The notes beneath the pieces are model-generated. The model saw nothing but the letters and a program-made list of their open reading frames with translations, did not search any database and was not told the DNA's origin. DNA of 64,000 bases from Beroe forskalii (taxonomy: Eukaryota > Ctenophora > Nuda > Beroida > Beroidae). The stretch spans positions 1-64,000 of the forward strand of contig WFMF01000631.1 of NCBI GenBank assembly GCA_011033025.1, in the 5' to 3' direction. Of this stretch, positions 4,580 through 46,115 are shown in pieces. Made by a program: the position numbers and the translations under genes. Positions within the stretch are counted from its first letter, which is position 1. Every line of letters begins with the position of its first letter.

Positions 4580-4608
4580 TCTGTTTGCCAATTAATATGC
4601 CAATTTAT
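4580..4608. repeat. Left remnant of a CCAATTTATAT tandem array
   Basis: Two units ('gccaattaatat', 'gccaatttat') that continue on the far side of the nested transposons at 14979-15063. The array was split by the insertion that starts at 4609. Confidence 0.6.
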
Positions 4609-4794
4609 GGTATGTGTCCCATATAACGGTATGTCTCCCATGTAAACGGGGCTGAGTGACGTCATTTTTTGCCCTACTTTTTTTTCACGGCACCACTTAT
4701 TTATTCATGAAATTTCAAACTTATTTTGTGCGCGCACAACGTAGTTTTCCCATTTTTTAAAAATAATTTTAATTTTTATAGTTATTTAAGAACA

Positions 4795-7700
4795 AGAACG
4801 GAACCCGGAAATTAGATCTTAGGAACAAGATCGTAGAACTGGGATTTAGAATCTTTAGAACAAGATCATGGAACCGGAACAAGATCAGAACAGGATTTTG
4901 GATCTAGAACAAGATCATGGAGCCAGGAACAAGATCGTGGAGCAGATCGTAGAACTGGATTTAGATCTTGGAACAGGATCATCCGAACAAGACCGTGGAA
5001 CAGGATCGTGGAACTGATTTAGATCTGGGAAACTGGATTTGGAACAAGATCGTGGAACAGGATCGTAGAACTGATTTAGATCTTGGAACAGGATCTGGAA
5101 CCGGAACAAGATCGTGGAACAGGATTTAGATCTTGGAACAGGATCTTGGGAACCGGAACAAAGATCTTGGAACAGGATCATGGAACTTGGAACAAGGATC
5201 TTGAACAGGATCAGAACTGGATGTAGATCTTTGGAACAGGATCAAGGAACTGGTACAGATCTTGGAACAGATCGTGGAACTGGAACAGATCTTGGAACAG
5301 GATCGTGGAACTGGAACAAGATCTTGGGGAACAGGATCGATGGAACTGGGGGAAACAGGATCGTGGAACAGATCAAAAATTCGTAGAACTGGAACAGGGA
5401 GCTTGAACAGGATCAAATGGAACTGGATGTAAGAAACTTGGGAGAACAAGGATCTGTGGAACTGGATTTAGATCTTGGAAACAGGATTGTGAAAACTAGT
5501 TTAGATCTTGGAACAGGATCTTGGAACCGAACAAGATGGAACAGGACTTTAGAACTGGATTTAGACCTTGGAACAGGATCATGGAACAGGATTTAGACTG
5601 GAACAGATCGTAGGAACTGGATTTGGGAACAGGATCATGGAAACTGAACAAGATCTCGGAACAGATCGTAGAACTGGATTTAGGATTCTTGGAACAGGAT
5701 CATGGAACCGAACAAGATCGGAACAGGATCATTAGAATGGATTTAGATCTTGGAACAGGATCATGGAACCGAACAAGATCGTGGAACAGGATAAGTAGAA
5801 CTGGATTTAGATACTGAAAAGGATCATGGAACCGAACAAGATCTTTGAACAGGATTAGAACTTGGATGTAGATCTTGGAACAGATCTTGAAACCGGAACA
5901 AAGATCTTTGAATTGGATCATGGAATTGGAACAAGCTTGGAACAGGATCCCGGAAACCGGAACAAGATGGAACAGGATCACGGAACCGAACAAGATCTTG
6001 GAACAGGATCGTGTGGAACTGGATTTAGATCTTGGAACAGGATCATGGAACTGGAACAAGCTCTTGGAACAGGATCGTGGAACTGGATGTAGATCTTGGA
6101 ACAGGATCACGGGGCCGAACAGATGGAACAGGAACAAGATAGAACTGGATTTAGGAGCTTGAACAGGATCATGGAACTGGAACAAGATCATGGAACAGGA
6201 TCATAGAACTGGATTTAGATCTTGGAACAAGATCATTGCGGGTTTACTAACAGGATTTAGATCTTGGAACAGGTTTGTGGAACTGGATGTAGATCTGGAA
6301 CAGGATCACGGAACCCACCGAACAAGATCGTGGAACAGGATCGTGGAACTGGATTTAGATCTTGGAATCTTTTGATCGTGGAACTGGATTTAGATCTTGG
6401 AACAGGATCGTGGAAAGGATCGTAGAACTGGATTTAGATCTTGGAACAGGATCATGGAACTGGAACAAGATCTTGGGACAGGATCTTTGAACTGGATGTG
6501 ATCTTGAAACAGGATCACGGAACCGGAACAAGATCGTAGAACTGGGTCATAGAACTTTGGATTTGGAACAGATGGGAACTGGATTTAGATCTTGAAAACA
6601 GATCATGGAAACCGAACAAGATACAACAGATCAGATCGATTTAGATCTGAACAGGGATCTTTGGGAACCGGGAACAAAGATCGTGGAACAGATCATAGAA
6701 CCGACCTAGATCTGGAACAGTGATCTTGGAACTGAACAAGATCGTGAACAGGATTTAGATGGAACAGGATCGTGGAACTGGATGTAGATCTTGAACAGGA
6801 TCACGGAACTGGAACAAGATCTGAACAGGATCGTGGAATTTGAACAGATCTCGAACAGACTCATGAACCACCCAAGATCGTGAACGGAACAAGATCTGAA
6901 CAGATCACAACTGAACAAGATCTTGAACAGGAATTGATGCATCTTGGAACAGATCGTGGAACTTAGATCTTGAACAGGGATCGTAGAACTGGATTTAGAT
7001 CTTGGAACAGGATCTTGGAACCGTAACAAGATCGTGGAACAGGATTTAGATCTTGGAACAGGATCGTGGAACTGGATGTAGATCTTGGAGCAGGATCATG
7101 GAATCGGAACAAGATCGTGGAACAGGATCGTAGAACTGGATTTAGATCTTGGAACAGGATCATGGAACTGGAACAAGATCTTGGAACAGGATTGTGGAAC
7201 TGATGATCTTGAACAGACTACGGAATCGGAACAAGATCGTGGAACATGATCCTAGAACTGGTTTAGACCCGGAACAGGATCGTGAACTGATTTAGATCTT
7301 GGAACAGGATCGTGAAAAGAGATCGTAAAACTGGATTTATGATCTTGGAACATGACATGGAACTGAACATCTTGGAAAACAGGATCGTGAAACTGGTAGA
7401 TATAACAGATCGTCCTATTGATATATGTTCCACGATCTATGATCTAGTGAGCTATGTTCTAAGATCTAAATCCAGTTCCACGATCCAGTTCCACGATCCT
7501 ATGTTCCACGATCCAGTGAGCTATGTTCTAAAATCTAAATCCAGTTCACAATCCTGTCCCAAGATCTCATTCCAGTTCTACGATCCTGTTCCACGATCTT
7601 GTTCCGGTTCCGTGATCCTGTTCCAAGATCTACATCCAGTTCCACGATCCTGTTCCACGATCTTGTTCCGGTTCCGTGATCCTGTTCCAAGATCTACATC

Positions 7701-10380
7701 CAGTTCCAGGATCCTCTTCCGGTTTCATGATAATTTTCTAGTGAGCTACGATCTATTGATATATGTTCCACGATCTATGATCTAGTGAGCTATGTTCTAA
7801 GATCTAAATCCAGTTCCACGATCCTGTTCCAAGATCTAAATCCTAATCCAGTATAATACGATCCTGTTCCGGTTCCATGATCTTGTTCTAGTGAATTACG
7901 ATCTTTTGATCTATGTTCCACGATCTAGTGGGCTATGTTCTAAGATCTAAATCCAGTTCCACTATCAGCTGTTTCTAGATCTAAATCCAGCTACGATCTA
8001 TTGATCTATGTTCCACGATCTAAGATGTAGTGAGCTATGTTCTATAAGATCTAAATCCAGTTCCACGATCCTGTTCCAAGATCTAAATCCAGTTCTACGA
8101 TCCTGTTCCACGATCTTGTTCCGGTTCCATGATCTTGTTCTTGTGTGCTACGATCTATTGATGATGATCTATGTTCCACGATCTAGTGAGCTATGTTCTA
8201 CGATCCTGTTCCTAGATCTAAATCCAGTTCTACGATCCTGTTCCACGATATTGTTCCGGCTCCATGATCCTGTTCCAAGATCTAAATCCAGTTCTACGAT
8301 CCTGTTCCACGATCTTGTTCCGGTTCCATGATCCTGTTCCAAGATCTAAATCCAGTTCTACAATCCTGTTCCAAGATCTTGTTCCAGTTCCATGATCCTG
8401 TTCCAAGATCTACATCCAGTTCCACGATCCTGTTCCAAGATTTAAACTCTGTTCCACGATCTTGTTCCGGTTCCAAGATCCTGTTCCAAGATCTAAATCC
8501 AGTTCAGCAGTTCTACGACCCTGTTCCACGATCTTGTTCCGGTTCCGTGATCCTGTTCCAAGATCTACATCCAGTTCCACGATCCTTTTCCACGATCCTG
8601 TTCCAAGATCTAAATCCAGTTCCACGATCCTGTTCCAAGATCTAAATCCAGTTCTACGATCCTTTTTCACGATCCTGTTCCAAGATCTAAATCCAGTTCC
8701 ACGATCCTGTTCCAAGATCTAAATCAGTTCTACGGATCCTGTTCCACGATCTTGTTCCGGTTCATGATCTGTTCCAAGATCCACATCCAGTTTCACGATC
8801 CTGTTCCAAGATCTTGTTCCAAACCATGATCTGTTCCAAGATCTACATCCAGTTCCACTGATCCTGTTCCAAGATCTAAATCCATTTCCTGATCTTGTTC
8901 ACATCGGTTCCAAGATCCTGTTCCAAGATCTAAATCAGTTCACGATCCTGTTCCACGATCTTGTTCCGGTTCCGTGATCCTGTTCCAAGATCTATCCAGT
9001 TCCACGATCCTGTTCCAAGATCTTGTTTCAGTTCCATGATCCTGTTCCAAGATCTACATCCAGTTCCACGATCCCTGTTCCAAGATCTAAATCCCTGTTC
9101 CACGATCTTTGTTCCAAGATCTACAGTTCACGATCCTGTTCCAAGATCTAAATCCTGTTCCACGATCTTGTTCCGGCTCCATGATCCTGTTCCAAGATCT
9201 TAATCCAGTTCTACGATCCTGTTCCACGATCTTGTTCCGGTTCCATGATCCTGTTCCAAGATCTACATCCAGTTCCACGATCCTGTTCCAAGATTTAAAT
9301 CCTGTTCCACGATCTTGTTCCGGTTCCAAGATCCTGTTCCAAGATCTAAATCCAGTTCTACAATCCTGTTCCACGATCTTTCCGGTTCCATGATCCTGTT
9401 CCAAGATCTAAATCCAGTTCCACGATCCTGTTCCAAGATCTAAATCCAGTTCTAAAGACCCTGTTTCCACGATCTGTTCCGGTTCCGTGATCCTGTTCCA
9501 AGATCTACATCCAGTTCCACGATCCTATTCCAAGATCTTGTTCCAGTTCCATGATCCTGTTCCAAGATCTAAATCCAGTTCACGATCCTTTCCACGATCC
9601 TGTTCCAAGATCTAAATCCAGTTCCACGATCCTGTTCCAAGATCTAAATCCAGTTCTACGATCCTGTTCCACGATCTTGTTCCGGTTCCATGATCCTGTT
9701 CCAAGATCTACATCCAGTTCCACGATCCTGTTCCAAGATCTACATGAACATCCAGTTCCACGATCCTGTTCCAAGATCTTGTTCCAGTTCCATGATCCTG
9801 TTCCAAGATCTACACCCAGTTCCACGATCCTGTTCCAAGATCTAAATCCTGTTCCACGATCTTGTTCCGGTTCCAAGATCCTGTTCCAAGATCTAAATTC
9901 AGTTCTACGATCCTGTTCCACGATCTTGTTCCGGTTCCGTGATCCTGTTCCAAGATCTTGTTCCAGTTCCATGATCCTGTTCCAAGATCTACATCCAGTT
10001 CCACGATCCTGTTCCAAGATCTAAATCCTGTTCCATGATCTTGTTCCAAGATCTACATCCAGTTCCACGATCCTGTTCCAAGATCTAAATCCTGTTCCAC
10101 GATCTTGTTCCGGTTCCATGATCCTGTTCCAAGATCTAAATCCAGTTCTACGATCCTGTTCCACGATCTTGTTCCGGCTCCATGATCCTATTCCAAGATC
10201 TAAATCCAGTTCTACGATCCTGTTCCACGATCTTGTTCCGGTTCCATGATCCTGTTCCAAGATCTAAATCCAGTTCTACGATCCTGCTCCACGATCTTGT
10301 TCCGGCTCCATGATCTTGTTCTAAGATCTAAATCCTGTTCCACGATCTTGTTCCGGTTCCATGATCTTGTTCTAAGATCT
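4795..10380. repeat. Palindromic minisatellite array 1
   Basis: The basic word is ~15-16 bp (GGAACAGGATCGT / GGAACTGGATTTAGATCTT), organised into a ~64-bp higher unit. From ~4800 to ~7390 units read GGAACAGGATC; from ~7420 to 10380 the reverse complement (GATCCTGTTCC) is read, so the two halves face each other. Between ~7400 and 8200 units are irregular, with extra 'gatctattgatctatgttcc' blocks. The left half has many single-base gains and losses; the right half is cleaner. Confidence 0.9.
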
Positions 10381-10388
10381 AAGTTCCG

Positions 10389-13300
10389 GGTATGTCTCCC
10401 ATATAAACGGCTCTGAGTGACGTCATATTTTTCGCTTCGTATTCTGAATAGGTGCATGTCTTGACCTAACCAGGGTCTTGACTTCGCATGAGTCTTGACT
10501 TCGCGCATATCGACTCACCTGGATAGGGAAATTGCGTGTCGCATGGGACCACAGGCTCATGGTACAAGGGGCAATAGATCAATGGTACACAGGGGGCAGT
10601 AGATCAATGGTACACAAGGGTAGATCAATGGTACACGGGGGCAGTAGATCAATGGTGGACACGGGGGCAGTAGATCAATGGGTACACGGGGCAGTAGATC
10701 AATGGTGCACTGGAACACTAGATCAGTGGTGCACGGGAACAATGGATCAGTGGATCATTGGAACAATGGAGCAGGCACACGGGAACAGATCAGTAGCAAA
10801 CACTGGAACATTGGTGCGATGGAACACTGGTGCAGTGGCACACGGGAACAGTAGATCAGTGGTGCACGGGAACACTGGAACATTGGTGCGATGGAACACT
10901 GGTGCAGTGGCACACGGGAACAGTAGATCAGTGGTGCACGGGAACACTGGAACAGTGGTGCAATGTTGCAATAGAACACTGGTGCAATGGCACACGGGAA
11001 CACTGGTGCAATGGAACACTGGTGCAGTGGCACACGAGAACACTGGTGCAGTGGTGCACGGGAACACTGGTGCACGGGAACACTGGAACAGTGGTGCAAT
11101 GGAACACTGGTGCAGTGGCACACGGGAACAGAAGATCAGTGGTTCACGGGAACACTGGAACAGTGGTGCATTGGAATTGGAACACTGGTGCTGTGGTACA
11201 CGAGAACAGTAGATCAGTGGTTCACAGGAACACTGGAACAGTGGTGCAATGGAAATGGAACACTGGTGCAGTGGCATACGGGAACAGTAGATCAGTGGTG
11301 CACGGGAACAGTGGAACAGTGGTGCAATGGAACACTGGTGCAGTGGCACACGGTAACAGTAGATCGGTGGTGCACGGGAACACTAGAACAGTGGTGCAAT
11401 GGAACACTGATGCACTGGAACACTGGTGCAGTGGCACACGGGAACAGTAGATCAGTGGTGCACGGGAACACTGGAACAGTGGTGCAATGGAACTCAGGTG
11501 CAGTGGCACACGGGAACAGTAGATCAGTGGTGCACGGGAACACTGGAACACTGGTGCAATGGCACACTGGTGCAATGGAACACTGGTGCAGTGCAGGTGC
11601 TCGAAAAAACTGGAACAGTGGTGCAATGGAACACTGGTGCCGTGGCACACGGGAACAGTAGATCAGTGGTTCACGGGAACACTGGAACAGTGGTGCAATG
11701 GAGCAATGGAATTGGAACACTGGTGCAGTGGCACACGGGAACAGTAGATCAGTGGTGCACGAGAACACTGGAACAGTGGTGCAATGGAACACTGGTGCAG
11801 TGGCACAAGGGAACAGTAGATCAGTGGTGCACGAGAACAGTGGTGCAATGGAACACTGGTTAAGTGACACACGGTAACAGTAGATCAGTGGTGCACGGGA
11901 ACACTGGAACAGTGGTGCAAAGGAACACTGGTGCAGTGGCACACGGGAACAGTAGATCAGTGGTGCACGGGAACACTGGAACAGTGGTGCAATGGAACAG
12001 TGGTGCAATAGAACACTGGTGCAATGGAACACTGGTGCAATGGAACACTGGTGCAGTGCAGGTGCACGGGAAAACTGGAACACTGGTGCACGGGAACACT
12101 GGAACAGTGGTGCAATGGAACAAGGTGCAGTCAGTGGCATACGGAACAGTAGATCAGTGGTGCACGGGAACGCTGGAACAGTGGTGCAAACAGTGGTGGC
12201 AAACGGGAGCAGTAGATCAGTGGTGCCCGGGAACACTGCAACAGTGGCGCACGGGAACACTGCAACAGTGGCGCACGGGAACACTGGAACAGTGGTGCCA
12301 CTGCACCAGTGTTCCATTACACCACTGTTCCATTACACCACTGTTCCAGTGTTCCCGTGCACCACTGCATCAGTGTTACAGTGCACCAGTGTTCCGGTGC
12401 ACCAGTGTTCCACTGCACCAGTGTTCCACTGCACCAGTGTTCCAATGCACCAGTGTTCCACAGACTGCACCAGTGTTCCACTGCACCACTGAACCATTGC
12501 ACCAGTGTTCCCGTGCACCACTGATCTGGTTCCCAGCACCACTGCAAGGAAAGTGTTCCATTGCACCACTGTTCCAGTGTTCCCGTGCACCACTGATCTA
12601 CTGTTCCGTGTGCCACTGACTGCACCTTGTTCCATTGCACTACTGTTCCAGTGTTCCCGTGCACCAGTGTTCCATTGCACCACTGTTCCAGTTTTTTCGA
12701 GCACCTGCACTGCACCAGTGTTCCATTGCACCAGTGTGCCATTGCACCAGTGTTCCATTGCACCAGTGTTCCAGTGTTCCCGTGCACCACTGATCTACTG
12801 TTCCCGTGTGCCACTGCACCAGTTCCAGTTCCACTGCATTGCACACCACTGTTCCAGTGTTCCATTGCACCACTGATCCAGTGTTCCTGTGCACCACTGC
12901 ACCAGTGTTCCCGTGTGCCACTGCACCATCAGTGTTCCATTGCACCACTGTTCCAGTGTTCCTGTGCACCACTGATCTACTGTTCCGTGTGTACTGCACC
13001 AGTGTTCCATTGCGTGCACCACTGATCTACTGTTTCCCGTGCCATGCACCAGTGTTCCATTGCACCACTGTTCCAGTGTTCTCGTGCACCACTGATCTAC
13101 TGTTCCTGTGCCCACTGCACCAGTGTTCCATTGCTCCATTGCACCACTGTTCCAGTGTTCCTGTGAACCACTGATCTACTGTTCCCGTGTGCCACTGCAC
13201 CAGTGTTCCATTGCACCACTGTTCCAGTGTTCCCGTGAACCACTGATCTTCTGTTCCCGTGTGCCACTGCACCAGTGTTCCATTGCACCACTGTTCCAGT

Positions 13301-14556
13301 GTTCCCGTGTGCCACTGCACCAGTGTTCCATTGCACCACTGTTCCAGTGTTCCCGTGTGCCATTGCACCAGTGTTCCATTGCACCAGTGTTCAGTGTTCC
13401 ATTGCACCACTGATCCAGTGTTCCCGTACTGCACCACTGCACCAGTGTGTTCCATTGCACCACTGTTCCACTGTTCCCGTGCACCACTGATCTACTGTTC
13501 CCGTATGCCACTGCACCAGTGTTTCAATTCCATTGCACCACTGTTCCAGTGTTCCCGTGAACCACTGATCTTCTGTTCCCGTGTGCCACTGCACCAGTGT
13601 TCCATTGCACCACTGTTCCAGTGTTCCCGTGTGCCACTGCACCAGTGTTCCATTGCACCACTGTTCCAGTGTTCCCGTGCACCAGTGTTCCCGTGCACCA
13701 TGCATCAGTGTTCCTGTGCACCACTGCACCAGTGTTCTCGTGTGCCACTGCACCAGTGTTCCATTGCACCACTGTTCCAGTGTTCCCGTGTGCCATTGCA
13801 CCAGTGTTCCATTGCACCACTGTTCCAGTGTTCCCATGCACCACTGATCTACTGTTCCCGTGTGCCACTGCACCAGTGTTCCATCCCACCAATGTTCCAG
13901 TGTTCCCGTGCACTACTGATCTACTGTTCCCGTGTGCCACTGCACCAGTGTTCCATTGCACCAGTGTTCCACTGTTCCTGTGCACCACTGATCTACTGTT
14001 CCCGTGTGCCACTGCACCAGTGTTCCATCGCACCAATGTTCCAGTGTTCCCGTGCACTACTGATCTACTGTTCCGTGCCACTGCTCCATTGTTCCAATGA
14101 TCCACTGATCCATTGTTCCCGTGCACCACTGCACTAGTGTTCCAGTGCACCATTGATCCACTGTTCCCCGTGTACCATTGATCTACTGCCACTGTCCAGT
14201 GTTCCATTGATCCACTGATCCATTGTTCCCGTGTACCATTGATCTACTGCCCCAGTGTACCATTGATCTACTGCCCCCGTGTACCATTGATCTACTGCCC
14301 CCGTGTACCATTGATCTACTGCCCCCGTGTACCATTGATCTACTGCCCCCCGTGTACCATTGATCTATTGCCCTTGCCCCTGCCATGAGCCTGTGGTCCC
14401 ATGCGACACGCACTTTCCCTATCCAGGTGAGTCGATATGCGCGAAGTCAAGACTCGTGCGAAGTCAAGACCCTGGTTAGGTCAAGACATGCACCTATTCA
14501 GAATACGAAGCGAAAAATATGACGTCACTCAGAGCCGTTTATATGGGAGACATACC
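10389..14556. mobile_element. Innermost foldback transposon carrying minisatellite array 2
   Basis: Arms of ~170 bp (10389-10560 and 14385-14556) begin GGTATGTCTCCCATATAAAC and share CTGAGTGACGTCA with the middle element, but their inner parts differ (e.g. AGGTGCATGTCTTGACC). Flanked by perfect 8-bp repeats AAGTTCCG at 10381-10388 and 14557-14564. It inserted at the right edge of array 1, just inside the middle element's right arm. Length 4168 bp; no protein is encoded. Confidence 0.88.
10555..14385. repeat. Palindromic minisatellite array 2
   Basis: Outer sub-arrays (10555-10700 and 14215-14385) are ~24-bp units with CAGTAGATCAATGGTACAC, in opposite orientation at the two ends. Inner units are ~70-bp groups of 15-16-bp words (GGAACACTGGTGCAGTGG, GGAACAGTAGATCAGTGG). 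Orientation flips near 12298 with no spacer. Because unit types are mirrored in order, the whole is one large inverted duplication. Confidence 0.9.
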
Positions 14557-14794
14557 AAGTTCCGGTTCCGTTATTGTTCTTAAATAACTTTAAAAATTAA
14601 AATCATTTAAAAAAATGGGAAAACTACGTTGTGCGCGCACAAAATAAGTTTGAAATTTCATGAATAAATAAGTGGTGCCGTGAAAAAAAGTAGGGCAAAA
14701 AATGACGTCACTCAGCCCCGTTTACATGGGAGACATACCCATATAACTCTGGCTGAGTGACGTCACAGACCTAAAGGTCAATTTTTCTGTATCC

Positions 14795-14882
14795 TAAACC
14801 TAACCATGACCCTAACCAAAACCCTAATCTTAATCCTAACCCTAACCCTAACAAATCCTGAACCTAATCGTGACCCTAACCC
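14795..14882 (+). repeat. Interstitial telomere-like CCCTAA repeats
   Basis: Degenerate CCTAA/CCCTAAC units, including three near-perfect ones around 14840-14855, typical of the animal TTAGGG telomere sequence on the C-strand. They lie inside the ~250-bp outermost foldback element, so they were probably carried there rather than marking a chromosome end. Confidence 0.75.
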
Positions 14883-14978
14883 GAGTCCTTAAAGCGCTAG
14901 GTGCGCTTAACTATATTTTTCTGACTGACGTCATTATCATAGATAATGAAGAGCCAGGAGTTATATGGGACACTAGCC

Positions 14979-15063
14979 CAATTTATATGTCAATTCATAT
15001 TCCGATTCATATTCCAAATCCAATTCATATTCCAATTTATATTCCAATTTATATGCCAATTTG
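14979..15063 (+). repeat. Right part of the CCAATTYATATT tandem array
   Basis: About seven ~12-bp units (CCAATTCATATT, CCAATTTATATT), continuing the fragment at 4580-4608. Confidence 0.75.
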
Positions 15064-23900: not shown

Positions 23901-26900
23901 GCACAGTCAATGAGATCTGCTCTCGTCCCATCAAGTGCTCCGGGAGGGATGTAGATTTCAAGAAGCTGGGTACTAGCGAGGCTCACAAGTTCCCTCAGAT
24001 GAGTCTCATTGCGAGTACTAACCCCCTCAACTTCGCCTTGGAGTCCTTCGCAGATCTGCTAAATGAGATAAAGGAGGGCAAGCTCTACACCACGGAGAAG
24101 CTGGTGGCTCAGTACTGGAAGGCGCAGGAGCAGTGGTCCAATGAGATAGAGAAGTTGCGGAAGCGCAAGACGAAGCCCCCTGCGTCGAGTAAGCGGCGTA
24201 ACTCCGAGGGTGAGGTGGAGAACACGGATGAGGTGGACTACGCGCAGAAGGAGATGGATCTCCTGGCCAACAAGCCCTTCCTCTCCTTCCCTCAGTACTA
24301 CCAGATCAACTCCAGCCTGCACGCAGAGAAATACGCCCCTAACGGTGAGTCTTGCAGGTGGAAATCAGTGTTGTCACTGGAATTTCATGATTTTCTGAGT
24401 CTAACATGCGATGAAATGCACAATATATTGATCCATAGAATAGGCCAGCACTGCATCTGAGAAAGTAAGGTGTGTTCCCATCAGGTAAGGTGAGCGTGCC
24501 CCGGTTCCTGCTACCTGACTATGGCTTCCTTACGGACGAGAAGAAGGAAGCCAAGGTCTCTAACGACGTGCTGCTGCTCCTGTGTTGCGGGGTGGGGGTT
24601 TATGCTCCAGAGGATGCCAGGGTCAACAACGACAACTACCTCGAGTGAGTGGGATGAGGGGGTGTGTGGGTGAGGGGATGTGGGGTGAGGGGATGTGGGT
24701 GAGGGGATGTGGGGTGAGGGGATGTGGGGTGAGGGATGTGGGGTGAGGGGATGTGGGGTGAGGGGATGTGGGGTGAGGGGATGTGGGGTGAGGGATGTGG
24801 GGTGGGGGTGAGTGGATGTGGGGTGAGGGATGTGGGGTGAGGGATGTGGGGTGAGGGATGTGGGGTGAGTGGATATGGGATGTGGGGATGAGGGTGAGGG
24901 GATGTGGGTGAGGGGATGTGGGGTCAGGGGATGTTGGGTGATTGGATGTGTGGTGAGGGGATGTGGGGTGAGGTGATGTGGGGTTACGGATTAAGAGTGG
25001 GGGGGATGTGGGGTGAGGGGATGTAGGGTTAGTGATGTAGGGTGAGGGATGTAGGATGAGGGATTTAGAGTGAGGGGATGTGGGTGAGGGGATGTGGGGT
25101 GAGGGGATTTGGGGTGAGTGGATGTGGGGCCAGGGGATGTTGGGTGAGTTGATGTTGGGTGATTGGATGTGTGGTGAGGGGATGTGGGGTGAGGTGATGT
25201 GGGGTGACGGATTAAGAGTGGGGATGTGGAGTGAGGGGATGATGTGGGTGAGGTGATGTGTGGTGAGGGGATGCGGGCTGAGGGGATGTGGAGGTGAGGG
25301 GATGTGGGTGAGGGGATGTTGGATGCGTACTGCGGAGTGGGGTTTTTTATCCTAAAGATGTCAGGGTTAACAACGATAACTACCTCTAGTGAGTACTGAG
25401 TAGGAGCTGAATGGTGTTGATGAGTCCATAAGTCGGCGTTTTATTGGAACCCGTTGTAATTTGTGTGACTATAACCATATAATAAACCGTGGCGTCTCAA
25501 CCGTTTTAGGCGCGGCGTATTATGCCGTGCTTGGGTGCCTTATTTGTGCGCGTTGCATTGAAACTACTTTGTGGCCATCACGCGGATGTGGAGGTGAGGG
25601 GACAGGGGTGAGGTGAGGATGGGTAAATTGAGATAGGTCCGGAGACAAACCAGATGTAGATGTCGCAACATATTCTCATTGACACCTGAAATTTCCACAC
25701 TATCGCCATTTCAGAATGATTCCCATTTCTCAGTTTCTCGAACTCACGACACCTTTGCAACACCTCGCCCCGGTTTAACGTTCACTTACTCCTTTCAGAG
25801 CAGTGATAACCCTGGCACAGAATGGTCGGCTGGCGTACCTGGTGGCAGACCACAACATAGCGTACGGAGTCAACTTCCCATTCTCCCGGACCATAGTGTG
25901 TGATGACTTCTCAGCTGCACACAGCATGAACACTGTCTTCCAGCTCATGTCTAGAGCAGGTATGTGGCTCCAGTCCGCGGTTCTCAGCACGGGTGCCTGT
26001 TATCGCATTTACTCTTGGAAAGTTAGTTTACATATCAATCGCAGTCTATATAAATATTAGGTTTCCATAGTCCATACATTCATTTCCCTAAACACAAAAA
26101 TATATATGATTCATCTGATTAAGCAAAAGTAGTTCAAAACTAGCCGGTCAGGCGTCAGCTGGTCAAAAGATAGTCGAAGGACCTGAACCATGAAATTTTG
26201 TTTTGTTTTCATAAGCCAGAGATCAGTCACCAGCTCATGGATGTCTTTCTTTAAAGAGAAGTTTTTAGTCATATTTTTGGGCCATCTATGAGTTTATGGT
26301 TCAAAAAGTCTATTTCACTTTTTAGCCTGAAAATTGGTGTTTTAAGAGGTTAGAGGCTACACTTCAGTCTCAAATAGACGTGTGGGAACGATTGCATTTT
26401 TTTAATTTTATTATAGCAGTGGGGGACAGTTATTTAACACCCTCCCGGTTAAGCGTTGATACTAACCCACCCGAAACCACCAAACCCACCCGAACCCGCC
26501 CAGAAACCACTCAAAACTCATACTTGGGGTGGGTCCGCCTGGTTCAGGTGGTTCCACCCGAACTTCGACCGACGTTGCCCGTCTATTTTTTCTGACTGGA
26601 TGGCGAAAGCGCAAACGTGACTGTCCAAATGTGCGTTTTTAGGGTAACATCCTACGACCCGAAACTCGACAAAACCCACCCCAGCCCTAACGTCATTAAT
26701 GTAGACGAAGATTTTCGTTTTCTCACCAAAATTTTCCCTCGTTCAAAAGAGGGCGTGGCCCCCTGAAATTTCCTCAAGGGGTAGAACGAGAACCATAACG
26801 CTCTTTGTAAATAATTGTTTTGCTCAGACTAACTCTATTTTCCTCTCATGAAAGTTGTGAAAGGGCTGTCGAAAATCAAAGCATTCGACCAATTCAAAAT

Positions 26901-29900
26901 GCGCTGATTATAGTGGTTTACAATTATTCGTTACCAGCAGAGCTGTTTGTCATTGACCAATTAGTACGCAAGTTTACGGTCAACTCGCTCGCTGATTGGT
27001 GTAACTGTAGCTATATGTCCTGCAGTCTCCATGCGCCACCTCACGTCCATTTTAGCTTTCACCTCCAGGTTTTAATTACATAACATTTAGATATTCACCT
27101 CGATTTTAGCACTCAATGATCTTTCACCTCTACTGAATGCTCTTTTCTTTTCCTCTCCTTCCCTCTAAACTGTTGTTCAGGAATCCCAGTCCTGGGTGGC
27201 CCAGCCTTCCAGTTGTAAGCTGTGATTTTTAGTACGTGGGCCGAAACCCCTCCGTTTCCCATATTTTGTCTGCTGATGGTACACCTACACCGCAGATGGC
27301 AGGGACCTTACAACTTTCGTAAGGTAACCGGTGATGATTCACAGTTTAGTCTCTTCCGCCTCTTATGTCAATCCTTGAATTAGGAAATCGATATTCAGTA
27401 TTTTGTTATGTTTGTAGTATACCCATACACCTCTATAGATAAGACATTGGATTACAGCTGCGGCCAAATCGTCGACAGATCGTCGAAGGTATTTGAACCC
27501 TGTCAGTTAGAGCGGGGCCTGTTCGGTGTTAGACCATGTGTGATTTAGACAGATAGATACCTTCTGAGACAAGACACGACACAGAAAATGGAAGAAAATT
27601 ATAACACAAACATAAAGAAAAAAAACAGCAAACTTAATTTCTGAGATAAATTGTCTTTAAATACAAAAAGGAATATAGGTTACGATAATGAAATCAATGC
27701 ATGCGGCCAAAGCTTGAAATCTATGGATATAAAACTTATTCCCTGCCCATACTTCGTACATGAATTCCTTACAATGAAAATGATTGTTTCAACGTTCGAA
27801 ACATCATGGCAGGAAGACTTAATATTTTTTGAATAATTAAAACATTGGGGGGGGGGTTTCACTGTCCCAATTGTCCCAAACTCAAGAAAAAGTGGATTGG
27901 GACAGGGACAAATGGGACATTTGGGACAAATGGGACAATTGGGACAAATGGGACAGAGAAAATGGAACAAATGGGACCTAAAAAAGTGAATTCGGACTGG
28001 GACAATTGGGACATTTGGGACAAATGGGACGATTGGGACAAATGGGACAGAGAAAATGGAACAAATTGGACTCAAAAAAGTGAATATGGACTGGGACAAA
28101 TGGGACATTTGGGACAATTGGGACATAAGTGACAGAGACAACTGGGAATCAAATGATTGTGTTTTTGAGTGGCAGTTTAGTGTTTTTGTCCCACAGCTTG
28201 TTACATAGTGGCAGACAACCAAAACTTGTACTTATTAGCATAGTAGTATGAATATAACTTTTATTTCAATGATAGAAAAACATTGATCAGTGTAAAAATG
28301 ATACATGACTGATTTTTTCAACTTTTGAAATCCCAATTGTCCCCAATGTTGTCCCAATTGTCCCAAAAACCAGTCCCAAACTCAAAAAAAAGTAAATTGG
28401 GACAGGGACAATTGGGACAATTGGGACAGTGACACTCCCCCCAACATTCTTTCGACGGATTGTTTCTCTCCGAGCTAACAGAACGAGCAGGAAGAGAATC
28501 GCGTTGATTAACGGCAGAGAACATTTGAAAGCCATCAATAAATCTTTAAATTTTTTGTGGCGGTTAAAATTATAAAAACATATATACTCAACAGAAAATA
28601 CGACGGGGTAAGCGGAAGTACAAAAAAGAATGATAAAGAAACAAGAAGGGTTGTGAAATTGGCACGATTCCCAGAATTTAGGTTTTGAGGTGCAGCAGCG
28701 TTCATTTTCCTGATGAAATGAACCTGAACACACATGCATACGAGTACAACTATACACGGGACCAAAAACTGTGAATATATCAGAAATCCACCAGCAATTT
28801 TCTGATTCTCCCACTGTCGAATCAAAGTTATCATGACTCCTTCGCCAACGTAGCTGATAGCTTCGACATACTGAAAGAACTGAAGGCAGTGCCTGTGATT
28901 GTATAATGCACGATACCAGCAGACTACATCAGCAGCAGAGGTGGCGAGGCTTATGAGAGGGAGGAGTATCAGGAAAGTCTTTATGAGGGTCGCGTTGAGC
29001 TGATAGAAGGGTTGACTCAAGTGCACTGCCTTGACAACAGTCAGCACCAAGTTGAAGAAGACAGAGGCAGTGTAGCTGAACACGCCCAGACACAGGAACA
29101 CTATCACCGGGATGCCAGGTATGTTGCTATGGGGATCCCTCCGACACACCAAGGCGACTGTTCCCCTGGCGACCTCTGCGGCAGCAGATACCATGTCCGC
29201 TGCAGCGATGAGGATGAAGAGGAGGGCAGACAGTCGGCGTCTGTCTGCGTAATAATCCCATATTATCACGGCGTTCTGAGTCAGGATGACGGCAGCCAGA
29301 CAGAGGTTCACCGGAGCCATGTAGTCGAACACAGACTGTATCCGTGGTCCGGCAGTCATGTCCAGTGGAGTGGACATGTCCAGTGGAGTGGACATGTCCA
29401 GTGGAGTTGACATGTCCAGAGACTGGGCTGGGCTCATATCCATCAGTCTAATGAACATGCATTGATAAGGTACAAAATCCCGGATTTATCATTCAAAAGT
29501 CAAAATTCAGAGTTTCAAATACTCAGAGTTTAACTAACTAACTTCAAAGACTCAGACCTTCGCTGTTGGCAAACTTTTCATTATTAACGGATCTGATAGA
29601 AAAACTTTCGATTTTTGATTTGAATTAGAAAATATTATCAGAGCAATATCTAACTGATGATTGAAGTATATTCTAACTTTCCTCTGATCTAAAATAACAT
29701 GAAAGTAAAGGTAACAAGACTTGCGCCTGCCGGCGCATTTCTTGTGCCCGTTGTTCCCGTATACAGGCGCTTAATTTCCTGTTCCCCGGGGCTGGTATAA
29801 AAACACGCCGTCATTTGATCGTCGATCATTGTACATTGTCCGTCTCATTTACTGACATGAAGAGTTGACGATAAAGCACTACTATCAATTACTGAGGTGT

Positions 29901-32900
29901 CGCTACCTCTGAGATCGGTGTCTGAAATATCCTCAAAACCACAATTTGTACGCGTGTGATACTGATTTAACAGTATATTCACCTACGGACATGGCGCCGC
30001 GCGATCGGAAATTTCAGAAGAATTCTCATTTTTCGAGGTGGCGACACCTGCCTCAGTGTCACATCGCAATACCATAACCAAAGGGCAAAGTACTAAAGTA
30101 CCAACATCATTGAATCATTCTTCTGAATATTTCTTTCATAAGTATAGACTGTTCGTTTTCTCTTATCTAACATAGGTGAGCGCTTAAATTTCATGAAAAT
30201 ATAAAGTTTGTACGTGATTTGCACGTGCATTTTATTGCGCGCGCAACACCTGCCATGTTCTGTTTGCGCCCAACACCTGCCATGTTTTGTTTGCGCGCGT
30301 ACCCATTCATTCTTGGTTGTTTCCTTTTGAGTTTTGTGCGACATTTCGTGCTCACATCAAGCGTTGCACATTATCAAGCAGTGTGCGCTGCGCGCCCGAG
30401 TGATATTATAAAGGAGCAGGAAATGATGGAAAAAGTGACATACCACGGATCGCATACGACCAAATTCGGTCGCGCGCAGCACACCACCTATTTCAGATTT
30501 AACAGTACGCATCAAAGTAGTATACACACAACACCCACAAAACACGATCTCTGCTAACCTTTTCTCAATGCCTTTTTGTAAAACAAAAACGCGATTGGGA
30601 ACAGGAAAAAATGAAGGACATATCAGTTTTCGAGAATCTTAAAGTTGAGTAGTTGAATAACTTATTCAACAACTCAATAAGGAAAGAGGTCCGCTTTATT
30701 GGGTGAAAGAAAATGCGACATTGAACTAATATCCTAGTTGTTAACAGAACATGTTTAAAGATGAAAAATACCGATGGCCTGAGAGAACACCGTAAACAGA
30801 ATATCGCAAAATAAACGTCTGCAATTCAAAGCTTTGATAAATTCCTCGAAGATCACTCTCTTGACAAGACGAATTGACGGAGACTAGGTCGACCCTCTTC
30901 ACACAACATAATAATTATAGATATTAGTAGCAGACCCATTTGGCCTGCTAATACAAAGCTCATTCGGCGGTGCTACGCACCACCTCCTTCGAAAATTTTG
31001 GACATACGCAATTGAAATTAATGAACAACTTTTTACTACATCGAGAAATTCGAATCAGAACCAAATTTATTCAGGGGAATAGCATAACAAAACCAACAAG
31101 GCCAGAAGTTAAATTCAGACTTCTCATATTACCATAGCAACGCAAGCATTTTTCCCTAATTCAGCACGTGAATGCTGACACAAAACTAGTTCCTAGGGAG
31201 TCATGATACTTTTTTTATTTTTTGGGTAAATTGAGCGATTCGTCGAGGCCAGTATCACGCCAGTATCGCGCCAGTATCAGGCCAGTACCACGCCAGTATC
31301 GCGCCAGTACCAGGCCTACCTCACGCCGTTATCGTGCCAGTATCACGCCAGTATCGCGCCAGTCGACACTTACTTTAAGCCAGGACGCCAGTAACACGCC
31401 AGTATATGATCTGATACTGGCGTGCTACTGGCGTCCTGGCTTAAAATAAGTGTAGACTGGCGTGCTACTGGCGTGCTACTGCCGTGCTACTGGCGCGATA
31501 CTGGCGTGCTACTGGCGTGCTACTGGCGCGCTACTGGCGTGATACTGGCGTGATAACGGCGTGAGTTAGGCCTGATACTGGCGCGATACTGGCGTGGTAC
31601 TGGCGCGCTACTGGCGTGATACTGGCCTCGACGGATCGCTCAATTTACCATTTTTTGTTGTTTCTATTCCAGAAAAAACAGTGAAAAAGCAAGAAAATAA
31701 ATTGAAACATGGATCCTGTATGCAACCAATATAACGTTTTAGCAGGTGGTTGGGTAGCTCCCACTCAAATATTATCGAGGTGTATCCCCGGCCCAGATCG
31801 GAAATATTTGAACCTACTTTAGTCTCCACTCTCCAGTTGACACACCATATAACCCCAGTTGACACACCATATAACCCAGTTGACACACCATAACCCACAG
31901 GACGTGTTGGACAGAGCTGGTTTGCAGAGTCCTTTGTCTCAGACACGGTGTCCGACACCCTGACCACCTTCTCCCACACCAACACGTCGCCAGACAACGG
32001 CCTTGAGGTGAGCGGAACACGGCAAAATGTTGGGGAAAGTCGTCAAAAATATTTCAGTGATTAATTATACCAAAGCTCAAGTAATATTCTATACGGTAAA
32101 TACACACTTGGGCGTGGAATTTACACATTAATTCCACGAGCTTGCGAGTGCATTTATTGGAGTAATTGCACGAGCTTGCGAGTGCAATTACGATGGTTAA
32201 TTTTCCCAATTTTAACACCCACGTGTGTATTTACTGTATTATTACCCTGCCATATATGCATCAATCAAATGAGTAGGTTTGAAACTTAGAAACATTTTAT
32301 GCTTCATAGTCAAGGCAAAAAGGAATAATAAGTGCATAAAGTTTGGGTATGACCAAACCCGACTGCTTCTCCAACCAAGACTGAATGTCGACTGCTTATC
32401 TCGACAGCCAAGCAGCCAGCATTTTTCACATCATTTTAACAACAGCACCGTTCTGGCAACGGTACCGTTGTAAACAAGGCGCCGTTGTTTACAAGGTACC
32501 TTGTTAACAACGATACCTCGGTAACAACGGTACCTCGTTAACAACGGTACTATGTTAACAACGGTACCTTGTTAACAATGCTATCTCGTTAACAACGATA
32601 TCTCGTTAACAACGGTACCTCGTTAACAACGGTACCTCGTTAACAGCGGTACCTAGTTAACAACGGTACCTCGTTTGCAACGGTACCTCATTAACAACGG
32701 TACCTCATTAACAACGGTACCTCGTTAACAACGGTACCTTGTTGACAACGGTACCTCGTTAACAGCGGTACCTCGTTTACAACGGTACCTCGTTAACAAC
32801 GGTACCTCGTTTACAACGGTACCTCATTAACAACGGTACCTTATTTACAACGGTACCTTATTTACAACGGTACCTTATTAACAACGGTACCTTATTTACA

Positions 32901-37968: not shown

Positions 37969-38273
37969 TATAATCTGCATCCCGATATCAATTCTGACAC
38001 ACATCATGACTTGCAAGGGTAATAACTGTAAGGCTGTTTGTTATTTTGAGGAAACAAAAAGAAGTCTCACACAAAAATCTCCCTAATTGAGTAATTGAAT
38101 TACTGAGAGACGGAAATTATCATATTTCAGAAACCTGATACGATGTGCAGCGATTGCAAAAGACACAGTAATCAAATTACCCGTATTTGGAGGAAGAAGA
38201 GTCCGTGAATAAATCAATTAAAGCCGTCCAAGTCTCTACAAATCATTGGTAACATTGCAACCCCTTTTACAAA

Positions 38274-40153
38274 ATGTCACGTCTTCCTTTTGCGTTACTT
38301 GTCTTGGCTCTCGGTCTCTGCATCGCAGGGGCTGAAGAGTCAGATTTACCATGCACAGGAGACAGCGGAGATATCGAGCCCTCCGACCAATCTACCATCG
38401 ACAGACTGATCCAGTTGCTCCAGGGACGAAGATCCACCATATTCGTGAGACGGCTCATCAAGAAAAGGGTGAAGGACCCCAACTCGAAGATCAGGAAATT
38501 GCTGGGTTTTGCAGGTGCCGACCCGAGGAACTTCAACGAAAACCTGAATGAGGCCCCCATGCAAAGGTCCATCAACAAGGATGTCCTGAACATCTTGAGT
38601 AGGGTAGTGGGACAGACCAGGTCCATTGTTGGTTATCTCTGGCACTACGGCTTCATTCCCAAAGTCCTCAACCTGAACGAGATGGCTTCTGACAACTACA
38701 ACGGTGTTATCCCCCCGTGTGCCATTACCAACGCCATCAAAGAGTTCCAGAGATTCAACAACTTGGAGCCTGCGGACGGTGTCTTGAGGAAGGAAACCCG
38801 GCTCCTCATGGCAGAAGACAGGTGCGGGAACAAGGATGTGCAATGCGACACCCCGAGTGTCTGGCAGCGGACGAAGCAGCGAGAGTTAGCGACAGTGACC
38901 ACCTCAAGAGGAAGAGGAGGTATGTGATCCGGTCCAGGAAGTGGCTCGATCACACCGGAGACGGACAGATCGTCCTCAAGTACTTCTACGAGAACATGTA
39001 CAGCACCAGTGCGGTCAACAAGAAGAACCACGACCAGAACATGACCCCGGAAATAGTGAGGAGGGAAGTGGAGAAGGGACTGGGAGCTTGGACCAAGGTG
39101 GCCCCCATTCACTTCGTCGAAGTTGATGATCAGTACGATGCCGATGTGAAGATCCAATTCGGGGAGGATGCTCACGGTGAATCGAGCACTAGAGCTTACT
39201 TTGACGGTAAGGACGGTATTCTCGCTCACATGTACTACCCTAGGAGCGGGAGGATGCACTTTGACGAGGCTGAGAACTTCACCGCCTCGACACAGGGTCC
39301 TGGCATCAACCTGGAGGTAACAGCTGCCCACGAGATGGGGCATGGTCTGGGGATAAAGCACACGAGCGTTCCCTACTCGCTGATGAACCCCTACTACAAG
39401 GGCTACCAGGAGGAGCCACTGGGAGAGGACGACATTGCGGCTGTGCAGCAGCTGTATGGCAGTGAGGGCACGGGATCTGTAGTGCCGCTTTCAGAGCAGC
39501 GGGAGTGTGTAGCTGGGGAGAGGAGGGACAACTTCCTGTGCGTGCAGTGCCCCCTGGACACCTTCAGTGAGACAGCAGACGCTGAGGAGTGTACGCCTTG
39601 TCCTGAGGGTGGGACTACCCTGGAGCCTGGTGCTTCGAGCAGCGGGGATTGTATCATCCCAGAGGAAGCCACTGAAGCTCAGGAGTTCGGAGCGTTGGAG
39701 GACCAGGAATGGCTCGACATTACCCGGGGACAGAAGATGGCGTTGGACATGACGAGAGGGAGTTTGCAGGTGAAAACGAGTGTAGATCTGAAGAGCAACA
39801 CTGAAGTGAGCGTCAGTCTGCTCAGTGAGACCGGGTGGATTGGGTCCTTCAGGATCTTCTTCAGGTACGGCAGGCTGCTCTACAACCTCAAGCATTGCAC
39901 TCCCACTTCAGCGCAACCCATCACAGACCTCCCTGAAGGACTTCTCACCGGTACGGATGATGTGTTTGATCTGATGGTTGACTCTGATTCCCTGGTGCTT
40001 TCATTGAACGGCGTCACGATTTTGGATTACAGGTTTTCTGAAGGAATTGGAGAGCTGTGCGTCAGCAAGTACCAGCAAGACGTAGCTGAAGTGAACTTCT
40101 GGAAAACAGACACTGCTTCGGATGGTTACAGGCACCGAGAAATGGCTGTTTGA
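38274..40153 (+). CDS. Secreted matrix metalloproteinase, intronless, no hemopexin domain
   Basis: ATG at 38274 opens a signal peptide (LLVLALGLCIAGA, ~1-20). Then come a prodomain with a peptidoglycan-binding-like helix set (~120-180), a cysteine switch EDRCGNKDV (~182), a furin site KRKRR, and the catalytic domain: structural-zinc part HGESSTRAYFDG, zinc site HEMGHGLGIKH (~353) and Met-turn YSLMNP. After LYGSEG there is a Cys-rich block with a CVQC...CTPCPEGGT pattern (ephrin-receptor/GCC2-GCC3-like) and a ~150-residue C-terminal domain I cannot name, instead of hemopexin repeats. It should be a furin-activated extracellular zinc protease. One base is missing in the C4 run at 38851-38854: the first frame ends at 38927 and the rest continues in another frame to 40153. 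With one more C the length is 626 aa. Confidence 0.93.
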
Positions 40154-43839: not shown

Positions 43840-46115
43840 TAACCCCAAAAAAACCCCCAAAAAAAAAATTTTAAAAACCCCCTTTTTTTTTAAAAAGGGG
43901 GGACTCAAATTCCCTTTTAAAAAAAAAAATTTTTTTTAAAAACCCCAAAAAATTTTGGGGTTAAAATTTTTTTTTTTGGGGAAAAAAAACCCCCCAAAAC
44001 CCCCCTTTTTAAAATTAAAAAAAAAAAAAAAAAAATTTAAACCGGGGGAAAAAAAAAGGGGGGGTTTTTTTAAAAAAAACCCCAAATTTTTAAAATTTTT
44101 TTTTTTAAAACCCGCCCCCCTTTTTTTTTTTTTTCCCTTTTTTTTTTTTTAAAAAACCCGTTTTAAAAACCAAAGCCCCCTTTTTCCCCCCCCAAAAAAA
44201 AAAAAACCATTTTTAAAAAAAAAATTTTTTTTTTTTTAAAAAAAAAGGGGGGAAAAAAAAATTTAAAAAAAAATTTTTTTCCCCCAAAAAAAAACCCCAA
44301 ACCCGGGCCCCCAAAATTTTAAAAACCCCAAAAAGGGGGGTTTAAAGGAAAAATTTCTTTTTTTCCCTTTTTTTTTAAAAAACCCAAAAAACCCCCCCCC
44401 AAACCCCCCCCCCCGGGTTTTTAAAACCCCCAAAGGTTGGGGGAAAAATTAATTTTTTTTAAAAAAACCCCCTTTTTTTTTTTAAAAATGGGAAAAAAAA
44501 AAAAAGGGGGTTTTTTTTGGGTTTTTGGGGAAAAGGGGGGGTTTAAAAAATTTTTAAAAAAAAAAAAGGTTTTAAAAAAGGGAAATTTTCCCCGGGGGTT
44601 TCCCCAAAAACCCCCCCAAAAAAAAAAGGGGGGGGGGGAAAAAGGGAAAAAAAAGGGGGGGGTTTAAAAAATTTGTTTTAAAAGGGTTTTTTTGGGGGGG
44701 CCCCTTTTCCCCCGGGGGGGTTTTTTTTTTAAAAAAGGGGTTTTCCCCCATGTTTTTCCCTTTTTTTTGGGGGGCCCAAAACCCCCCCCCCCGGAAAAAG
44801 GGCCCCCCCTGGGGGGCCCCCCCGGGTTCCCCCCCCCCCCAAAAAACCCCCCCGGGGGGCCCCAAAAAAAAACCCCTTTGGGGGCCGGTTTTTGGGGTTT
44901 TTTGGGGGGGGGCCGGGGGTTTTTTGGGGAAAAAGGGGGGGGGAAAAAAAGGGGCCTTTTCCCCCCCCTTTTTTGGGGTTAACAGTTTAAACCAAAAATT
45001 TAGTTTGGGGGAACCCCAAAAAAACCCTTCCCAGGGGGGGAACCCAAAAAAAAGGGGGGGGTTTTTTAAAAAAGGGGGTTTTTAAAAAATTTTTTTTAAA
45101 AAAAAAAGGGGGGGAAAAAAAGGTGTAAAAAAACCCCCCGGGGGGGCCCCCGGGGGGGGGAAAAAGGGGTTTTTTTCCCCAAGGGGCGGGGTTTAACCCC
45201 TTTCCCCCTTTTTTTCCGGCCCCCTTTAAGGTTTCCCCGGGGGGTTTTTTTTTTGGGGGTTAATTTCCCCCCGGGGGTTTTTTTCGGGGGGGTTTTTTCC
45301 CCGGGTTTTGGGAAAAATTTAAAGGGGGTGGGGAAAAAAAAAAAAGGGGGGGAAAAATTTTTGGGGGTTTGAACTCCCCCGGGGGAAAAATTTTTTTAAC
45401 CCCCCCCAAATTTTTTAAAAACCCCCAAATTTTTAACTGGGGGGAAAATTTCCCCGGGTCATTAAACCCGGGGGGGTTTTTTAAAAAAACCCTTTTTTAA
45501 ACCCCCTTTTTTTAAAAAACCCCCCTTTTTTTTTTTAAATTTGGAAAAAAAGGGGGGTTTTAATTTTAAAAGGGGGCCCCCCCAAAAAAATTTTTTAAAA
45601 AATTTTTTTTTTTTTTTAAAAAATTTTTTTTTTGGGGGGGGGTTTTTTTTTTTTTTGGGGGGGGCCCCCCCAAAAAAAAAAAAAAAATTTTTTGGGGGGC
45701 CCCCTTTTGGGGGGGGGGTTTTTTTGGGGGCCCCCCCGGCCGGCGGTTTAAAAAGGGGGTTTTTTTTTTTTTTGGGTTTTGGGGTTGGGGGGGGGTTTTT
45801 TTTCCCCGGGGGGGTTTTTTTTTTTAAAATAAAAAAGGGGAAAGGGGGGAAAAGCAAAAAAAGGGGTTTTTTTTTAATTTTTAAAAAATTTTAAATTTTT
45901 TTTTAAAAAAAAATTTTTTTATTAAGGGCCCTGGGAAAAAATTTTTTAAAAAAAAGGGAAAATTTTTTTTTCCCCCCGGGGGGGGGGGAAAACCTTTGGG
46001 GGGGGGGGGAAATTAAAATTGGGGGGGTTTTTTGGGCCTTTTTGGGGGGGTTTTTTTTTTTTTAAAAAAAAAGGGGAAAAAAAAATTTTTTTTTAAATTT
46101 TTGCCAAAAAAATTT
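43840..46115. other. Homopolymer-only stretch, probable assembly artefact
   Basis: Nearly every base lies in a run of 3-20 identical bases (for example AAAAACCCCCAAAA, GGGGGGTTTTTT). Ordinary dinucleotide variety is absent. No biological repeat I know looks like this; degraded consensus over a repeat or an unresolved junction is likelier. Its ORFs (Lys/Phe/Gly/Pro strings) are meaningless. Confidence 0.8.

Follow-up and report, generated by a model that had tools for sequence, protein, structure and literature searches.

Three nested non-coding transposons of Beroe forskalii share a terminal module and are probably mobilised by a Merlin transposase

The stretch analysed here (the window: positions 1 to 64,000 of the forward strand of contig WFMF01000631.1, assembly GCA_011033025.1, from the ctenophore Beroe forskalii) carries three related transposons nested inside one another: an outer element at 4609-14978, a middle one at 4628-14739 and an inner one at 10389-14556. 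Direct reading of the sequence places their boundaries to the base, and the six ends and three perfect 8-bp target duplications (CAATTTAT, CATATAAC and AAGTTCCG, respectively) lie exactly where a preliminary description of this DNA had put them; all six ends start with GG, in line with the GG...CC ends claimed there. The kinship, nesting and common tip proposed in that description were upheld by the direct reading, the genome-wide tip count and the duplication pairs, and the boundaries bear out its account of the insertions: the middle element landed in the left tip of the outer one, which measures ~250 bp without that insertion, and the inner element landed at the junction of the middle element's array and its outer arm. 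The outer miniature element was there first, the middle foldback followed, and the inner foldback came last. The features of the nest are as follows.

4601-4608, no strand: outer target duplication CAATTTAT, left copy
4609-4627, plus strand: left tip of the outer miniature element (GGTATGTGTCCCATATAAC)
4620-4627: left duplication CATATAAC of the middle element, formed by the last 8 bases of the outer left tip
4628-4800, plus strand: middle foldback, left unique outer arm, including the shared terminal module (4628-4664)
4801-7400, plus strand: middle foldback, left array, unit ~32 bp (GAACAGGATCATGGAACTGGATTTAGATCTTG); approximate boundary; more noise than in the right array
7401-10388, minus strand: middle foldback, right array, 32/96-bp units in opposite orientation; left boundary approximate
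10381-10388, no strand: inner target duplication AAGTTCCG, left copy
10389-10560, plus strand: inner foldback, left unique outer arm with the shared terminal module
10561-12295, plus strand: inner foldback, left array, 24/72-bp units; boundary approximate
12296-14384, minus strand: inner foldback, right array in opposite orientation; boundary approximate
14385-14556, minus strand: inner foldback, right unique outer arm, 170/172 identical to the left arm
14557-14564, no strand: inner target duplication AAGTTCCG, right copy
14557-14739, minus strand: middle foldback, right unique outer arm; 177/182 aligned bases match the left arm, with 6 gap columns
14740-14747, no strand: middle target duplication CATATAAC, right copy
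14740-14978, plus strand: remainder of the outer miniature element, with telomere-like CCCTAA interior; right tip GGCTAGTGTCCCATATAACTC in reverse
14753 and 14921: two direct CTGA[G/C]TGACGTCA blocks of the outer element
14979-14986, no strand: outer target duplication CAATTTAT, right copy

The middle and inner foldbacks (5,936 bp, with the inner element and one copy of its duplication excluded, and 4,168 bp, respectively) share one layout, in which a unique outer arm of ~170-185 bp is followed by a short-repeat array and then by the mirror image of both. Tandem Repeats Finder gave units of ~32/96 bp in the middle foldback and 24/72 bp in the inner one. Compared arm to arm, 2442 of 2647 aligned bases agree in the middle foldback (650 gap columns) and 1749 of 1842 in the inner one (484 gap columns); the greater divergence of the middle foldback agrees with the order of insertion, although it is weak as a clock. 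In the middle foldback the left array is far less regular than the right (repeated-12-mer fraction 0.42 versus 0.72), which could reflect either real decay or read errors in the hairpin.

All three elements had initially been called foldbacks. This holds for the middle and inner ones, which consist of long inverted repeats of short tandem repeats, and fails for the outer one: its tips are ~21 bp long (18/21 positions alike, counted by eye), its two CTGAGTGACGTCA-like blocks point the same way, and its interior is CCCTAA-rich and telomere-like. Because the tips are short and the blocks direct, we ruled out a foldback and regard the outer element as a miniature element, whose relatives account for most of the tips read outside the two arm searches described below. 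Its duplication, taken alone, is the weakest of the three, because a similar local repeat (CCAATTTATATT-like, 14978-15062) adjoins it.

Searching all 64 kb of the window for GG...CC ends with matching tips and an 8-bp duplication returned the three elements of the nest and one small element at 31225-31649; the other hits fell within arrays or in a stretch at ~43.9-46.0 kb that is rich in homopolymers and looks like an artefact. The small element is a separate foldback of 425 bp with a perfect 8-bp duplication (ATTTTTTG) and the tip GGTAAATTGAGCGATTCGTC, and its opposed arms hold 11-bp tandem units; it obeys the same GG and 8-bp rules as the nest and has no similarity to the loci examined.

That none of the nested elements encodes a protein was also claimed, and Pfam found no recognisable protein among the 18 stop-to-stop frames of at least 150 amino acids in the nest: 17 matched nothing, and the remaining one reached DUF1265 below threshold (19.7 bits, where 25 is required). 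The DDE_Tnp_IS1595 transposase was not found among these frames, and none of the 35 matches to its domain, PF12762, in the genome falls on contig C727; its absence is expected of a non-autonomous element.

The ends of all three types agree through GGTATGTCTCCCAT[A/G]TAAACGG-NNN-TGAGTGACGTCA and then diverge at once. The module so defined, GGTATGTCTCCCAT[A/G]TAAACGG...CTGAGTGACGTCA, spans ~37 bp (in the window's outer element it occurs as a variant), and behind it lies a telomere-like stretch in the short element, an array of ~32-bp units in the middle type or an array of ~24-bp units in the inner type. In the assembly of 216,145,372 bases and 1,134 contigs, 480 exact copies of the 22-bp tip occur (100 of these places were listed), against none for a control read backward, and the base expected after NNN is absent in only 15 of the 480. 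The shared block CTGAGTGACGTCA is over-represented in the window, with 13 occurrences at up to two mismatches versus 1.03 expected, 6 of the 13 lying within the nest. By count alone the tip GGTATGTCTCCCAT is not over-represented in the window (6 at up to three mismatches versus 5.42 expected); what carries weight are the four exact copies and one 1-mismatch copy that stand at the boundaries of the nest. A 35-place module whose next base is not C gave 978 genome matches at up to two mismatches; among the 100 listed, 81 were exact and 19 carried a single mismatch, with GTCAC at the end of 18 of the 19, as in the short elements. At least 41 matches were obtained with the middle arm (40 of 269 candidates scored) and at least 43 with the inner arm (40 of 902 scored), 10 of the latter 43 covering the shared end only.

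Among the 123 ends placed in the loci examined, 32 pairs are flanked by perfect 8-bp duplications: 19 long pairs (12 of middle type and 7 of inner type, the window's two included) and 13 short ones (81-356 bp). The outer element's pair is not counted among the 32, and in none of the 32 does the duplication extend to 9 bp. The middle type was assigned by arm match on C197 and for the slice ends of C303, C373 and C503, and on C158 by the letters GTCATTTT. Ten further pairings of the remaining ends have no matching duplication; seven of them are short-element pairs, two join different end types, and another (C154:147488-148588, 1,101 bp) has 7 mismatches. The search of the genome for copies with the common tip thus yielded, besides the 480 exact tips, many independent complete pairs, and the three elements of the nest are real non-autonomous cut-and-paste DNA transposons. 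In a count of 31 distinct paired duplications, the outer one included, C or G occupies 39 of 62 outer positions versus 44 of 186 inner positions (Fisher p=5e-8), and the target profiles of foldbacks and short elements are similar. One 8-mer, CTGGTTAG, was hit by four middle-type insertions (C307, C489, C287 and C221; loci L033, L049, L034 and L041), two present as pairs and two as single ends; judged by eye, the site seems to lie in a GC-rich repeat. The duplication CAAACTTC also recurs four times.

Wherever an array is present it follows the arm, middle with middle and inner with inner; the exceptions are C727:14739, where the inner element lies behind the arm, and C228:174478, where the array is absent. 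Several copies of both foldback types quit the array early and continue into other sequence. The sequence past the array differs, by eye, in four truncated inner-type copies, and no common middle segment was found in the truncated copies of that type, which share arm and array. The 40 scored middle-arm matches agree at 93-100%, most of the longest array alignments at 72-84%. The arrays therefore seem to evolve faster than the ends, although the possibility of out-of-register array alignments calls for caution. At another locus (L086, C899:42765-43790), a miniature element is broken by a foldback-like array of GTAACGTCGTTACGACATA units that turns round midway (by eye).

Our results suggest that these elements are probably mobilised by a transposase of the Merlin superfamily that is encoded elsewhere in the genome. 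Merlin elements are marked by terminal GG and by 8- or 9-bp duplications (PMC8101967); all six ends in the window have 5'-GG, and the 32 perfect pairs have 8-bp duplications. The Merlin domain PF12762 has 35 matches in the genome, and 11 of these loci were read (L092-L102). In six of them (L092, L096, L097, L098, L099 and L102) long tandem-repetitive inverted repeats surround the gene, and in three of the six (L092, L099 and L102) there are GG ends with perfect 8-bp duplications. At L092 the Merlin gene lies between inverted repeats of ~180 bp that are 96% identical and internally repetitive, with the tip GGCAGTATCCAAG and the duplication CAATTTTC; L099 and L102 have the tip GGCAGTCTGGAGG, repetitive inverted repeats and the duplications GAAATACT and GACGATTT, respectively. 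L096 and L097 have long repetitive inverted repeats whose ends are unclear or beyond the stretch fetched. Pfam confirmed the Merlin domain in the frames of L099 and L098. Genuine Merlins of this genome can thus have foldback-type repeats. Non-coding derivatives of them seem to exist as well: on C259, C725, C325, C461, C1024 and C1069, copies of the L099 repeat form inverted pairs with no PF12762 match in between (repeat pairs only, duplications aside). It is the combination of GG termini, rigid 8-bp duplications and Merlins with foldback-type repeats in the same genome that favours Merlin as the source of the enzyme.

Several observations weigh against this assignment. Seven short-element pairs have imperfect flanking 8-mers, with 2-8 mismatches. 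At L098 the tips (GGTAACTCGG, by eye) have non-matching flanks, and L093, L094, L095, L100 and L101 show no gene-spanning inverted repeat in the stretch fetched (L093 matches the L092 repeat at 75%, on one side only). A Merlin gene enclosed by GGTATGTCTCCCAT ends was not found, and an autonomous relative with the same ends, which the preliminary description had proposed to look for, did not emerge among the 11 of 35 Merlin loci read, the tip variants or the tips with unusual interiors. None of the 15 tips without the expected next base lies within 300 kb of a Merlin match, and module copies with other interiors, found at 1 and 7 places, are absent from Merlin-bearing contigs; 11 small loci taken as candidates for unusual interiors (L081-L091) proved by eye to be copies of the miniature element, several of them partial or interrupted. 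Among the matches listed, the tips nearest to Merlin genes lie at distances of 6.0 and 7.4 kb (C2:865592 and C171:113889) and point away from those genes. BLAST at E<=0.001 did not match the 38-bp module to any of the 11 Merlin loci, and the genome also holds MULE transposases, with 46 matches to PF10551 (counted by domain alone). A resemblance by eye between the right-end tip of the short elements, GGTCAGTCTCC, and a Merlin tip, GGCAGTCTGG, was left unused as evidence, since the left-end module has no BLAST match in the Merlin loci read.

Those MULE transposases could in principle move the elements, which would then be Mutator foldbacks comparable to FB of Drosophila or Tm1 of nematodes. Mutator is where most described foldbacks are placed (PMC4079207), and the inverted repeats of Tm1 hold tandem repeats of 13-15 bp (PMC3169594). 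The duplications make such an origin unlikely: those of Tm1 are 8-10 bp long and mostly 9 (PMC3169594), and those of Tetris, assigned to Mutator by its authors, are 8-10 bp (PMC4079207), whereas all 32 perfect pairs described here stop at 8 bp and a predominance of 9 bp was not seen. Merlin accommodates this uniform length.

We consider it equally doubtful that the enzyme belongs to some other superfamily with 8-bp duplications, be it hAT, P, KDZ/Zisupton or an undescribed one. The size of the duplication alone fits hAT and P too, and GG termini are not known to be typical of either. P-type PF21787 had no match in the genome, although the search control was silent too. That a member of the P superfamily can look foldback-like is shown by Galileo (PMC3573991).

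For the nest, the preliminary description had suggested self-targeting, in which elements seek out their own sequence. The two nested insertions in the window point that way, as do three insertions outside it that adjoin family sequence (E<=1e-8) and, under a less strict cut-off, two further places (C35:26478 and C1:463670). The suggestion is nevertheless unsupported, and we think it improbable, since family sequence is no commoner at the junctions than among the bases nearby: 4 of 84 junction ends (those outside the window with a flank of at least 1 kb; the 4 represent 3 insertions) against 5.9% of the bases 150-1480 bp from the ends (6,422/109,268, of which the flank of C154:148588 alone gives 1,325). 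Moreover, the window was picked for its nest, and clustering together with target preference suffices to explain it. Family members cluster strongly: the remainder of the window (0 of 53,610 bases) and the Merlin loci (0 of 35,811) contain no family sequence, and contig C154 (459,066 bases, 0.2% of the assembly) holds 14 of the 43 inner-arm matches among the matches listed. Four pairs on C154 have four different duplications, which favours separate transpositions over segmental duplication. Two intervals are much longer. One of these four pairs, C154:104626-131694 (27,069 bp; L068, L059 and L111-L116), has inner-type ends with GTGGACTG on both sides, and 5 of 6 interior 300-base samples are not array (by eye); the other, C158:351744-366863 (15 kb; L103 and L104), has ends read as middle-type with the matching duplication CATTTTTT.

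That the nest is an assembly artefact of repeats is very improbable: residual errors do seem to be present, as in the noisier left array of the middle foldback (0.42 versus 0.72) and the homopolymer stretch at 43.9-45.8 kb, but at many other loci the two foldback types and the short element are met again, flanked by perfect duplications.

A possible mechanism would be that one transposase, most likely Merlin (IS1595-like DDE), acts in trans by recognising the ~37-bp end module, cuts beside GG and inserts the element at cuts staggered by 8 bp, preferably at sites resembling C/G-(A/T)6-G/C. Mobility would not depend on the interior, and a single module could therefore carry the telomere-like stretch or either array. 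The array units might grow and shrink by slippage or unequal exchange, and the arrays may offer extra transposase-binding sites, as discussed for Galileo. Taken jointly, our findings would suggest a broader scenario, on which we are evenly divided: Merlin may have evolved a foldback architecture in this genome, with coding copies that have long tandem-repetitive inverted repeats and with non-coding derivatives in which one 37-bp module sits on unrelated, fast-evolving arrays or on a telomere-like miniature core, these derivatives amplifying in regional bursts and in some cases extending over 15-27 kb from one matching duplication to the other.

Sea urchins have the TU elements, foldbacks in which short tandem repeats and 8-bp duplications go together with modular middles. 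The closest parallel in design is the pair formed in Drosophila virilis by the foldback Tetris and the miniature element DAIBAM, which have the final portions of their inverted repeats in common and are thought to depend on the same autonomous mover, which was not found (PMC4079207); Tetris differs in its repeats of ~220 bp and in the range of its duplications. Galileo, of the P superfamily, likewise has long, internally repetitive inverted repeats, whose tandem repeats have been discussed as extra transposase sites, and it differs in its 7-bp duplications and P-type transposase (PMC3573991). The Mutator/Foldback element Tm1 of root-knot nematodes resembles the family described here in its composite inverted repeats with short tandem units and in its transposase-coding, miniature-like and other forms; besides its mostly 9-bp duplications, it differs in asymmetric 7-bp motifs outside the inverted repeat (PMC3169594). 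Merlin, which is related to IS1016/IS1595, shares with the nest the 5'-GG termini and 8-bp duplications and is known with inverted repeats of 24-462 bp and, in some families, tandem repeats (PMC8101967). The likeness is increased by those Merlin genes of this genome that have long repetitive inverted repeats; the elements of the nest differ in having no transposase, in arms of ~2-3 kb that consist mostly of short tandem repeats, and in that no autonomous partner with their tip was found among the loci and tip variants mentioned above.

Foldbacks are known from Mutator and P, and a Merlin-type foldback would probably be a new variant; a literature search by title, with most subscription journals outside its reach, met no foldback linked to Merlin. 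Some foldbacks are orphans for which no transposase has been found; foldbacks as a whole are mostly placed in Mutator (PMC4079207). Because Merlin genes with foldback-type repeats share this genome with orphan foldbacks that obey the same rules for ends and duplications, Merlin becomes a further testable source of foldbacks besides Mutator and P. Knowing the enzyme matters, since foldbacks have been implicated in inversions and satellite formation (PMC4079207). The combination of the same ends with different interiors also provides a natural series for testing the role of the arrays.

Other features of the window lie outside the nest. Two arrays, at 24649-25319 and 27887-28125, consist of 45 copies of a 15-bp unit and of TGGGACAAAT-type units, respectively; the latter resembles, by eye, a Tandem Repeats Finder array in the C258 locus (L061). 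At 43900-45800, ~1.9 kb are made almost wholly of short homopolymer runs and look like a sequencing or assembly artefact. A gene for a matrixin-type metalloprotease at 38253-40153 is apparently split across two overlapping frames, as by an indel, and Pfam places Peptidase_M10 in the second of them.

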